Part shown: positions 45,822 through 48,575 of the stretch, piece after piece | Numbering within the stretch: position 1 is the stretch's first letter | Layout: every line of letters starts with the position of its first letter | NCBI GenBank assembly: GCA_006969905.1 | Contig: CP030887.1 | Span: 3,336,730-3,400,729, forward strand | Reading direction: 5' to 3' | DNA from: Balneolaceae bacterium | Lineage (GTDB): Bacteria > Bacteroidota > Rhodothermia > Balneolales > Balneolaceae | DNA length: 64,000 nt | The notes under the pieces: generated by a model | What the model saw: only the letters and a program-made list of their open reading frames with translations | What the model was told of the DNA's origin: nothing | The model's database searches: none | Program-made: the position numbers and the translations under genes

Positions 45822-46901
45822 TTATTGCTCAGTCATTTCGTTCAACTTCTCCAGGTTATCCTGAACCCGGAGTGCATTAATTACTTCATGGATGTCTCCT
45901 TTCATCGCACTGTCTAAGTTGTATAAGGTAAGGTTAATCCTATGATCAGTAATTCTGCCCTGGGGATAATTATAAGTACGGATTTTAGCTGAACGGTCTC
46001 CGGTTGAAACCTGGCTTTTCCTTTCAGCTGCCCTGGCTTTTTCTTTCTTTTCAAGCTCAATATCGTACATTTTTGCCCGGAGCATAGTCATGGCACGTTC
46101 TTTATTCTGATGCTGAGAACGTTCTTCCTGACATTCAACTACAATTCCCGTAGGTTCGTGGGTGATACGAATAGCAGAGTCAGTTTTGTTTACATGCTGA
46201 CCTCCAGCCCCACTCGCCCTGAAGGTATCTATTCGTAAATCACTAGTGTTAATGTCAATATCCACTTCCTCAACTTCAGGAAGTACAGCCACAGTTGCAG
46301 CGGATGTATGCACCCGTCCCTGGCTTTCGGTTGCAGGAACCCGTTGAACCCGGTGCACCCCTGACTCATATTTCATTTTTCCGAATACTTCATTCCCTTC
46401 CAGCGAAAAAGTTATTTCCTTGTATCCTCCTTTTTCAGATTCGTTCAGGCTCAGTAAACTTAGCTTCCACCCTTGAGAGTCAGAGTATCTTCGATACATA
46501 TCAAACAAATCTCCGGCAAATATAGCCGCTTCATCCCCTCCCGTTCCGGCACGGATTTCAATAATTGCGTTCTTTGAATCCTCCGGATCCTTCGGAACCA
46601 GCTTTATTTTTATGTCAGACTCCAGTTTTTCAAGATCTTCTTTAATTTCTGCATTTTCTGCTTTAGCCATCTCAGTGATCTCGGGATCATCATCCATTTC
46701 TATAAGCTCATCATTTCCCCTTTTTCGGGAGGTAAGATCCAGCCATGTATCATAGTCTTTTACCAATTCTTCAAGATCGCTTCTCTCTTTGGTAAGCTTG
46801 GTATATCGTTCAGGATCATCAAATACAGAAGGGTCGCTCATGGCCGTATTCACTTCCTGAAACCGGGATTTAATCTGTTTTAGCTTTTCTTCTATGTCCA
46901 T
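45822..46901 (-). CDS. prfA: Peptide chain release factor 1
   Basis: 359 residues. Recognises UAA and UAG and releases the finished chain. RF1-type codon-recognition motif PAT in [14 protein letters not shown]; catalytic GGQ at residues 233-235 in [14 protein letters not shown]-terminal helical domain intact. The stop lies directly against the shared terminator. The prmC gene that often follows prfA is not next to it. Confidence 0.97.
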
Positions 46902-46960: not shown

Positions 46961-47369
46961 ATAGAATACAGGATTAAGAATTGAGAATATTCTTTCTGTA
47001 AGATTCCAGCATTTTACTCACCTCGGTTAGATCTTTAATTAACTGATCTGTATTTCCATACTCTAAATCCTTAATCAGAATTAAATAATATTGACATTCC
47101 TCCAGCGAACCTTGAGCAATATTATAGAATCTGGCTTTTTCTTTATTTCCCCTTTTTTTGAAGCCTTCAGCAATATTAGCAGCAATTGATATAGAAGCCC
47201 TCCTGAACTGAGAGGTTAAACCATAAATTTCTGATTTTGGGAACTTCTTACTTATTTCATATGCATTTAATACAAAATGATGGGCTTTTTGCCATACCAA
47301 TAAATCTTTAAAACTTTGAGCAGGTTTGATATTCATAAATCCTCCTATATTCTGAATTCTGCATTCTAT
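46961..47369. mobile_element. S23-type element: four-helix-bundle gene bounded by imperfect inverted repeats
   Basis: Bases 46961-46981 and 47349-47369 are 21-base inverted repeats matching at 18 positions (both outer ends read ATAGAAT inward). Between them lies one gene for a 23S-rRNA-intervening-sequence type protein. In rRNA, such proteins are encoded inside inserts closed by complementary ends. Here the unit sits between two housekeeping genes, prfA and purK. I see no clear target duplication. Mobility is inferred. Confidence 0.5.
46974..47336 (-). CDS. Four-helix-bundle protein (S23 / 23S rRNA intervening-sequence family)
   Basis: 120 residues from ATG 47336, which has AGGAGG (plus 47341-47346) just upstream; a longer frame to 47381 would run through the inverted repeat and is unlikely. 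Family marks: FKDLLVWQKAHHFVLNAYEI, FPKSEIYGLTSQFRRASISI, then ANIAEGFKKRGNKEKARFYNIAQGSLEE. The protein folds as a small pentameric helical bundle; relatives include the Avd accessory protein of diversity-generating retroelements, but no reverse transcriptase or variable repeat is present. The C-terminal codons run into the left inverted repeat. Role unknown. Confidence 0.9.
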   Translation of the reverse strand: MNIKPAQSFKDLLVWQKAHHFVLNAYEISKKFPKSEIYGLTSQFRRASISIAANIAEGFKKRGNKEKARFYNIAQGSLEECQYYLILIKDLEYGNTDQLIKDLTEVSKMLESYRKNILNS

Positions 47370-47402
47370 ATCTTCCTTCAAAAAAATGAAATTATACTAA
47401 AA

Positions 47403-48575
47403 TTGAAAAACTCTACGTTGCGTACTTCAATTCCTGCTAACCTAAAACTAGGATTTCTTGGTGCAGGACAATTAGCCCGGATGAGTGCTTTGGAAGCATT
47501 CCGTTTTGGCATTCAGGTTTCAGTTTTTTCGGATCGTTCTGAAAATGAGCCTGTTCAATTTATGACCCCCTTTTCTATCTCCGGTTCATTTGAATCTATT
47601 GATGACTTAGTGGCTTTTGCAAAAGAATGTGACGTGATTACCTTGGAAAATGAGTTTATTAGCTCTCAGATACTAAAAGAAGTACAGCAAAAAAGCGGTA
47701 CTCCTATTTATCCTTCCCCTGAAAGCTTTGCTTTAATTGAGAATAAACTGATTGAGAAGCAAACCTTTGAAAAAGCAGGTATTCCGGTAACCCCTTACCA
47801 GCTTATTACTTCTGAATCTGATCTTAAAAGTTTTGGCGAAAAACATGGCTGGCCTTACCTGCTAAAGTCTTCAAAAGGCGGATATGATGGGTATGGCAAT
47901 GAAACAGTAAGAACTCTTGAGGACGCCATTAAAGCATTTGAGAAATTGGGTGGTACTAAAGGGCATGATATCATTGCTGAAGCTTTTGTGCCATTTACTA
48001 AAGAACTTGCTGTGCAGGTTGCCAGGAATGAAACAGGATCAGTAGTATACCCTTGTTGTGAAACGGTACAGGAAAATCATATTTGTGTAGCAGTCCTGTC
48101 CCCTGCTCCTGTTCCGGAACGACACCAAAAAAGAGCGCAGGAACTTGCCATAAAAGCGGTAGAAGCTATTGATGGGAAAGGAATTTTTGCTTTCGAATTT
48201 TTTCTTACTGAAAACGGTGAAATATTACTTAACGAATCTGCCCCGCGCCCGCACAACTCAGGACATTATACGATTGAAGGATGTATATCCTCACAATTTG
48301 AAAATCATGTTCGGGCAGTATTAGGGTTACCCTTGGGAGCAACTAAATTGAATGCCCCGGCAGTAGCTATGATAAACCTCTTAGGCACTCATAGCCGATC
48401 TGCAGAAACTGATCATATTAGTAATGCATTAGCTACTGAAAATGGCCATCTTCATGTATATGGGAAAGTACAAAGTAAGGTAGGCCGCAAAATGGCACAT
48501 TTTACCCTGCTTGGGGATGATTTGGATAAAACTTATCATAAGGCAAAAGAATTAACCAGAAATATTGAGATTTAG
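47403..48575 (+). CDS. purK: 5-(carboxyamino)imidazole ribonucleotide synthase
   Basis: 390 residues from TTG 47403. ATP-grasp enzyme carboxylating AIR to N5-CAIR with bicarbonate. LGFLGAGQLARMSALEA at the N-terminus, KSSKGGYDGYGN in the ATP-grasp loop, FEFFLTENGEILLNESAPRPHNSGHYTIEG and the C-terminal HVYGKVQSKVGRKMAHFTLLG are intact. The frame is open to 47316, but that part overlaps the S23 element, and no ATG lies before the conserved glycine motif, so the start is uncertain. purE follows three bases later. The insertion-like element lies where the purK promoter would be expected. Confidence 0.93.
   Translation: MKNSTLRTSIPANLKLGFLGAGQLARMSALEAFRFGIQVSVFSDRSENEPVQFMTPFSISGSFESIDDLVAFAKECDVITLENEFISSQILKEVQQKSGTPIYPSPESFALIENKLIEKQTFEKAGIPVTPYQLITSESDLKSFGEKHGWPYLLKSSKGGYDGYGNETVRTLEDAIKAFEKLGGTKGHDIIAEAFVPFTKELAVQVARNETGSVVYPCCETVQENHICVAVLSPAPVPERHQKRAQELAIKAVEAIDGKGIFAFEFFLTENGEILLNESAPRPHNSGHYTIEGCISSQFENHVRAVLGLPLGATKLNAPAVAMINLLGTHSRSAETDHISNALATENGHLHVYGKVQSKVGRKMAHFTLLGDDLDKTYHKAKELTRNIEI

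Follow-up and report, generated by a model that had tools for sequence, protein, structure and literature searches.

Inverted Heptad Arrays Frame S23 Genes in Bacteria: A Weak, Old Example beside purK in a Balneolaceae Genome

Introduction

REPIN–RAYT systems consist of one protein gene with short inverted end repeats, together with many matching solo inverted doublets in the genome. Avd, a distant sequence relative of the S23 proteins, has a role in retrohoming. The S23 gene itself is known from intervening sequences (IVSs) of 23S rRNA: in Coxiella burnetii the IVS is 428 nt long and holds an S23 open reading frame (ORF) within inverted repeats, with tandem GACAGAT heptamers before the ORF (PMC4990558). 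The same paper notes the heptamers in its one IVS, and calls the origin and function of rRNA IVSs unclear (PMC4990558).

Heptamer repeats have a literature of their own, with GGGAATC of Xanthomonas, GGGGAYT of Nostoc, and TAACTGA of Beggiatoaceae as known examples. GGGAATC has been published as a G-quadruplex heptamer, including its convergent inverted pairs (PMC4692102). When 7006 prokaryotic genomes were surveyed in 2018, tandem heptamers proved to be the most abundant intergenic repeats, with no clear functional clue (PMC6344855). The published heptamer repeats are described without a protein partner, and the main texts of these papers contain none of the S23 terms searched for (PMC4692102 among them). 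A literature search that lay mostly outside subscription journals gave no title or abstract opening that connects heptamer repeats in general with S23 genes. Here we describe a small S23 unit between two protein genes of a Balneolaceae bacterium, and relate it to similar units in other bacteria and to heptad arrays elsewhere in their genomes.

The S23 Unit between prfA and purK

The DNA analysed is a 64,000-nt stretch of contig CP030887.1, here called the window; the features discussed are given in Table 1.

Table 1. Features of the S23 unit and its neighbours (positions in the window; arms named in gene sense).
Feature	Position	Strand	Basis and remarks
S23 gene (PF05635, 23S_rRNA_IVP), 120 aa, ATG start	46974-47336	minus	profile match, E=1.9e-37
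5' arm, heptads AGAATGC AGAATTC AGAATAT leading into AGGAGG	47347-47371	minus	sequence and end alignment
AGGAGG, 4 nt from the S23 ATG and probably its ribosome-binding site	47341-47346	minus	sequence reading
3' arm, includes the S23 stop codon	46961-46990	minus	sequence and end alignment
prfA, same strand as S23, downstream gene	45822-46901	minus	ORF listing; name presumed
purK, divergent from S23	47418-48575	plus	likely TTG start; ancestral ATG position is ACG

The S23 protein lies well over the curated cut-off of its family (128.1 bits against 33.8), and a Pfam scan returned only PF05635 and bAvd (PF22296), the latter as a weak match below its own curated cut-off (E=4.7e-5). A longer ORF, starting further upstream at a TTG (47381), is also listed. 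The ends of the unit (46961-46981 and 47349-47369) match in inverted orientation at 18 of 21 positions (86%), with a match score of 13.5, so that the initial annotation of a single, stand-alone S23 gene bounded by inverted ends holds. Both arms consist of heptads: AGAATAC AGGATTA AGAATTG AGAATAT on the plus strand at 46963-46990, and AGAATGC AGAATTC AGAATAT AGGAGGA on the minus strand, where a tandem repeat of period 7 spans 47349-47367 and the AGGAGG before the S23 gene is in phase with the last heptad. By itself this end match stands out only modestly, since a score of 13 is reached by 41 of 1600 crossed arm pairs; it becomes convincing because the genome's other units share the arrangement and because both arms are AG-heptads. 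The unit is perhaps best regarded as an old, partly decayed member of an AGAATTC type.

The unit had been described as an element in the leader of purK. It does lie before purK; however, it is on the strand of prfA (which presumably encodes peptide chain release factor 1), 72 nt upstream of that gene and divergent from purK, and is therefore just as much in the leader of prfA. The accompanying observation that purK lacks an ATG before its conserved start was borne out: where several relatives read ATG TCT CGT, the window genome reads ACG TTG CGT, and the TTG at 47418 is the likely start. Within 47415-47420 the ancestral purK ATG is thus an ACG, with the next codon, TTG, probably starting the protein. 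In our reading of the sequences, an ATG at the ancestral purK start is found in none of the seven loci with an S23 unit, and several loci without a unit have one.

Empty sites in relatives, proposed earlier as a check, were found. We read 30 purK loci, of 58 genomes with a match: seven have an S23 unit, 15 have prfA adjoining purK without a unit (G005, of the same genus as the window genome, is among them), four have prfA further off, and four have no prfA. The unit is present here in five of the eight genomes of the genus and in two genomes of another genus, and is therefore old at prfA–purK. Hairpins were scored at six of the 15 loci without a unit; two of these, G020 and G030, carry a solo heptad hairpin (scores 18.0 and 19.5, shuffled maxima 10.0 and 10.5), and the other four gave nothing above the shuffled level. 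Depending on the relative, this one site is thus empty or carries either an S23 unit or a solo heptad hairpin. Two findings had been named in advance as counting against the initial annotation: a unit fixed in the genus with no other copies, and orthologues without end similarity. The unit is indeed old at this site, but other S23 copies exist; the end match of the orthologues is weak, their own scores of 10.0-14.5 being no higher than those between orthologues.

S23 Units in the Genome and Genus

The window genome has 11 S23 (PF05635) genes. Across the eight genomes of the genus there are 83 matches, 1-16 per genome and 82 of them over the cut-off (G003 16, G006 14, G002 13, G007 12, G000 11, G001 11, G004 5, and G005 1), and an S23 match is found in 193 of 247 Bacteroidota genomes. 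In the window genome, the own end pairs of eight of the 11 units score at least 12.5, and one arm pair matches without a single mismatch over 31 nt. L005, L007, and L011 have no clear end match (7.0-9.5), although a tandem array with an 8-nt repeat lies alongside L005. Own pairs of the 11 units average 15.2, against 8.8 for crossed pairs (SD 1.26, maximum 13.0), and common ends for all S23 copies of the genome were rejected on these crossed pairs. Looking for further copies with the same ends, proposed earlier as a check, thus gave copies whose ends are private to each unit, with only a heptad grammar in common.

In G233, two related S23 units with 86% DNA identity and a similar arm type lie about 1 kb apart (L177). 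In G003, an S23 copy at a site between the genes labelled o11 and o13 has an internal deletion, leaving 251 nt between genes against about 407, and is a decaying unit (L070, 10363-10570).

The Grammar of the Arms

From 186 S23 calls in Bacteroidota, 160 units remained after duplicates and units with fewer than 200 nt on a side were removed. Their own ends score at least 13 in 110 of the 160, compared with 41 of 1600 crossed pairings; the direct-orientation control gave 15 of 160 units, and other genes of the same loci had matched ends in 15 of 370. Chance and ordinary promoter palindromes are ruled out by these crossed-arm and control-gene comparisons. In a set of 247 units, kept after removal of near-copies (85%) and odd lengths, a strong end match was found in 176 when 24 nt of the gene were included, and 71 had none.

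The arms are periodic: identity at a lag of seven is 0.57 in arms and 0.29 in control flanks, and the best period of the 110 arms is 7 in 81 and 8 in 24. In the 81 period-7 5' arms, A predominates at one position (0.77) and G at the next (0.78), whereas the remaining positions are variable, with little C. On the 5' side of the gene the arm reads AG in 87 of the 110 and CT in seven, with a tie in 16. The arm grammar is hence a tandem repeat of AG followed by five (or six) less constrained bases, with AG on the gene's 5' side. A median arm measures 30 nt (quartiles 25-34), i.e., four to five heptads. In the arm pairs that we aligned, both arms carry variant heptads in the same order; the arms therefore look like copies of each other rather than merely two arrays of one repeat unit.

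The period also follows the S23 protein. Among 161 of the 247 units with period 7 or 8, 14 changes are needed on the S23 tree—which was built from few alignment columns relative to its number of sequences and is unresolved at many nodes—against a shuffled mean of 22.7, and none of 500 shuffles was as low. The period agrees between nearest neighbours in 137 of 164 comparisons; shuffling gave 118 on average and at most 134.

The Same Design outside Bacteroidota

Part of the Xanthomonas protein 2gsc served as query against genome contigs; the best 80 named loci, of at least 469, yielded 77 scored units, and 33 more came from 37 loci of a viral collection. Own ends score at least 13 in 53 of the 77 named-genome units (crossed pairs 63 of 770, a rate raised because Xanthomonas relatives share one arm type) and in 26 of the 33 viral-collection units (crossed 23 of 330). 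Within Xanthomonas, four of seven loci score 17.5-20 and the other three 9.0-11.0, below 13. Arms resembling GGGAATC or GGGATTC are found in four of the seven Xanthomonas loci and in units of Dokdonella, Dyella, Rhodanobacter, and Solimonas. On cyanobacterial plasmids, eight units hand-picked from 42 records with a match all score 15.5-28 (no crossed control), and the arms of several are AG-heptads (CAGGGAA, CAGGTGA, AGCTTTT, CAGGAGT). With Xanthomonas, cyanobacterial plasmids, Nitrospira, and others, the S23-heptad architecture occurs in several phyla.

In two of the plasmid loci, from Anabaena sp. 90 and Pseudanabaena galeata (L410 and L414), the S23 unit lies between cas6 and cas4 of a CRISPR operon, in operon direction.

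Turnover and Exchange of Units

An operon that is presumably the paa (phenylacetate) operon has units between its genes, in operon direction, at four intergenic sites, each filled in some congeners and empty in others. At the o8-o9 site, two genomes (G000 and G004) have 6 nt between genes and the six others have 438-493 nt with an S23. Units are thus present, absent, or replaced at fixed intergenic sites.

At o8-o9, G003 has a different S23 (51-55% identical) beside a neighbouring gene that is 96-97% identical to those of G001, G002, G006, and G007. Conversely, over the 87 codons that precede its in-frame stop, the S23 of G005 is 97-98% identical to those of the same four genomes, but identity in the neighbouring host protein is only 86-87%. 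At o7-o8, the S23 of G001 is 56-57% identical to those of genomes sharing 96-97% in the neighbouring gene, and 81% identical to that of G004, whose neighbouring gene shares 89%. From such discordances at two sites, units appear to be exchanged as wholes. DNA identity of the G005 unit at o8-o9 is 0.60-0.80 in the left flank, 0.60-0.73 in the 5' arm, 0.82-0.98 within the unit, and 0.66-0.84 in the right flank, the high-identity stretch beginning just within the 5' arm; the most likely reading is that a unit passed from one species to another, the transferred segment ending at the arms. The unit in question (L075, 9556-9820) holds the sole S23 found in G005, with an in-frame TAA, and is probably a pseudogene although its DNA identity points to recent acquisition.

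The arms may change together as well. At o8-o9, own scores of G006, G007, G001, and G002 are 20-27.5 and crossed scores between the two pairs are 10-20, best read as a joint change of both arms between G006/G007 and G001/G002. No such change was seen in G005 at this site or at the purK site, where own scores are no higher than crossed ones.

Evidence of recent jumping was sought in 313 units derived from 372 S23 calls. No pair at non-homologous sites, and so no recent jump, came to light among the 106 S23 gene pairs with at least 78% DNA identity (pairs with short flanks being unjudgeable); five pairs differ in one flank. The same element at unrelated sites, as expected of an insertion sequence or MITE, was thus not seen among these close pairs, and no target-site duplication was evident by eye between filled and empty o8-o9 sites.

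Solo Arrays That Match the Arms

Arrays of an arm's heptad also occur away from S23 genes. In Xanthomonas arboricola, a single S23 gene is accompanied by 188 exact doublets of GGGAATC (reversed control 0); such doublets are absent from 12 of 16 genomes searched, and a single match in the window genome, with no surrounding array, was taken as chance. GTGAATG doublets number 11 in G283, whose S23 has such arms, and 16 in G291, where the one S23 unit read lacks them; the other 14 genomes have none, and the reversed control gave 10 in G282 and 1 in G287.

We then considered 60 genomes of the X. arboricola family, 29 with S23, in all of which the S23 arms were read. The first 20 units were picked with doublet counts in view, the remaining units over the cut-off being read later; overlapping doublets of an array are counted separately, those in the arms of the unit itself are part of the total, and kinship is uncontrolled throughout. 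At least 20 GGGANTC doublets are found in 18 of 29 genomes with S23 and in four of 31 without (p=1.2e-4, kinship uncontrolled). The median count is 255 where both arms of the S23 unit are of the GGGANT type (13 genomes), 4 where the arms are of another type (16 genomes), and 1 in the 31 genomes without S23. GGGANT-armed and other-armed genomes differ by rank (p=8.5e-5) and less so with the cut at 20 (p=0.052, kinship uncontrolled in both); with that cut, other-armed against S23-less genomes gives p=0.050. Exceptions run both ways. G330 and G340 have GGGANT arms and few doublets (7 and 16), and G311, G325, G299, G319, G310, G306, and G348 have other arms and many (20-157), with arms of near type in G306, G310, and G311; the four S23-less genomes above the cut also belong here. 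In this one family, the arm type of the resident S23 is associated with the abundance of that heptad type.

Reversed-pattern controls are not neutral where the reverse is itself a heptad of another type. This is the case in G325, whose S23 arms are AGGGCTN and which has 97 matches to that heptad, the reversed-pattern control; these matches in turn speak for a link between arm type and array type. A GGAGTGA pattern was considered as a further cognate case; it occurs in eight of the 60 genomes—G295, G299, G319, and G321, which have that arm type, G307 and G339, which have no S23, and G314 and G340—and is absent from G316, whose arms are related. With such mismatched genomes and a reversed control of up to 12 per genome, we lean on it little.

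In the genus of the window genome, AGAATTC-type sites away from S23 were counted by eye: 10 in G003, 9 in G007, 7 in G006, 6 in G001, 2 in G002, 1 in G000, and none in G004 and G005. The window genome has only one besides its unit, and the seven congeners 0-10. These counts rise with S23 counts (rank correlation 0.86 over eight genomes, kinship uncontrolled, with a reversed control of 0-14 that is itself a heptad).

Array pairs within 300 nt of each other are convergent (+/-) in 11 of 13 cases and +/+ in two, with no -/+ pair, among the places listed in three genomes. An apparent replication-strand bias of the arrays in G314 was dropped, as the all-forward pattern reflects list order in a sample chosen at forward sites. 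Two solo GGGATTC arrays of G314 (L416 and L424) start a few bases after the apparent stop codon of the upstream gene.

Comparison with Described Systems

The unit resembles the IVS of 23S rRNA in that an S23 ORF is enclosed by complementary ends, and GACAGAT, too, places AG every 7 nt (PMC4990558). In contrast, the window unit lies between protein genes and not inside 23S rRNA, and in the class as a whole each unit has arms of its own, one unit can be found in place of another, and matching arrays occur elsewhere in some genomes.

At the level of the class, the solo repeats that match an S23 gene's ends (as in X. arboricola, and in the family medians with their exceptions) and the convergent solo doublets recall REPIN–RAYT systems. 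However, S23 is not a Y1/HUH transposase—the Pfam scan gives PF05635 and bAvd alone—its repeats are periodic heptads rather than REP palindromes, and the evidence for mobility is indirect. The published Xanthomonas repeat GGGAATC also forms the arms of four of the seven Xanthomonas S23 loci and of units in related genera. Avd is set apart by a match below the family cut-off and by the genomes searched, most of which lack a PF00078 reverse transcriptase.

Proposed Explanation and Alternatives

We lean towards reading the window feature as an S23-heptad unit of a two-part selfish system, made up of an S23 protein and its cognate heptad arrays. A unit would comprise the S23 gene framed by two inverted arrays of the form (A/G)G-N5 or AG-N6, private to that unit. 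The solved S23 relatives 2gsc and 2rld, both deposited as uncharacterized proteins, have five chains each, which suggests a pentamer, and the S23 protein may be a ring that binds nucleic acid, reading AG once per 7 or 8 nt along a single strand. This role as a heptad reader is proposed because the relatives have five chains, a ring with one AG bound per subunit would need regular spacing, an arm is four to five heptads long, and the spacing follows the S23 lineage. Binding of periodic single strands by a ring protein has parallels in TRAP and Hfq. Gene and arms, together with the solo, gene-less arrays, would form a system with a logic like that of RAYT genes and REPINs, presumably kept going at the DNA level with host enzymes. 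For the class as a whole, we judge the balance to be even on the proposal that S23 is the partner of the heptamer repeats so abundant between the genes of many prokaryotes, as a ring protein reading AG every 7 nt (8 in some lineages) on a single strand, that the arrays of each lineage spread and diversify selfishly without a transposase or reverse transcriptase of their own, and that rRNA IVSs are members that landed in 23S rRNA.

The arms might instead pair in RNA, like those of the 23S rRNA IVS, into a stem around the S23 message, with RNase III cutting it to insulate the unit from its operon and compensatory change keeping the arms matched. The layout is the same as in the IVS, which has a 28-bp stem, the S23 ORF in the loop, and heptamers before the ORF (PMC4990558), and the joint arm change at o8-o9 fits as well. 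Orientation agrees with it too: among the 156 of 160 units counted, 111 have the direction of both flanking genes, 16 that of the downstream gene alone, five that of the upstream gene alone, and 24 that of neither (orthologous units not being independent), and all adjacent gene pairs of those loci number 612 on the same strand and 184 on opposite strands. A stem selected in the sense RNA should tolerate G-U pairs, but the wobble test, made on the 141 of 247 units that reached the score without gene overlap, went the opposite way: transition mismatches between arms are G-U-compatible in 96 cases and not in 144 (p=0.002), i.e., depleted (by unit 32 against 51, p=0.048; all units unfiltered 42 against 58, p=0.13), which lends such a stem no support. 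Pairing alone would also leave the fixed AG every 7 nt and the unpaired arrays elsewhere in the genome unexplained, and we regard the RNA stem as an unlikely explanation.

Unlikely as well, and a shade more so, is a domesticated, non-mobile S23 regulator, TRAP-like in its binding of AG-heptads in RNA near start codons, which would control its own operon and have the solo arrays as its regulon. The window arm does run into the probable ribosome-binding site, the period follows the S23 lineage, and heptamer repeats upstream of starts have been proposed as sites of a post-transcriptional regulator (MacGregor 2015, PMC4679880). A non-mobile regulator sits poorly, however, with the differences between close species in whether a site holds a unit, and which one, and with a unit that appears to have moved between species, and a shared regulator would not need arms private to each unit within one genome.

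Polymerase slippage could have made the heptamers independently of S23, the genes merely lying in repeat-rich intergenic DNA. The abundance of intergenic tandem heptamers in the survey cited above (PMC6344855) and the arrays in S23-less genomes would suit this, but matched ends in only 15 of 370 other genes of the same loci, an order of variant heptads (not just a repeat unit) shared by both arms, an AG polarity of 87 to 7, and doublet counts that depend on S23 arm type make it highly improbable.

Mobilisation in trans by a host reverse transcriptase or another retroelement, raised in the initial annotation and with S23 acting like Avd, is suggested by the weak bAvd match, but is not required and is very improbable indeed: PF00078 was found in six of 19 genomes searched (in the window genome as one match, not adjoining the S23 gene) and was absent from 13, including the four S23-richest of the genus (G002, G003, G006, and G007, with 12-16 S23 each) and the array-rich G278, G308, G312, G314, and G317.

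Conclusions

The small gene beside purK is one weak, old example of a widespread class of S23 genes with mirrored seven-letter repeats, and is in this way connected with the heptamer repeats, so far without explanation, that are dispersed in the genomes of many bacteria. If S23 proteins read heptads, then the heptamer repeats, the S23 structures, and the intervening sequences of rRNA would be one puzzle.
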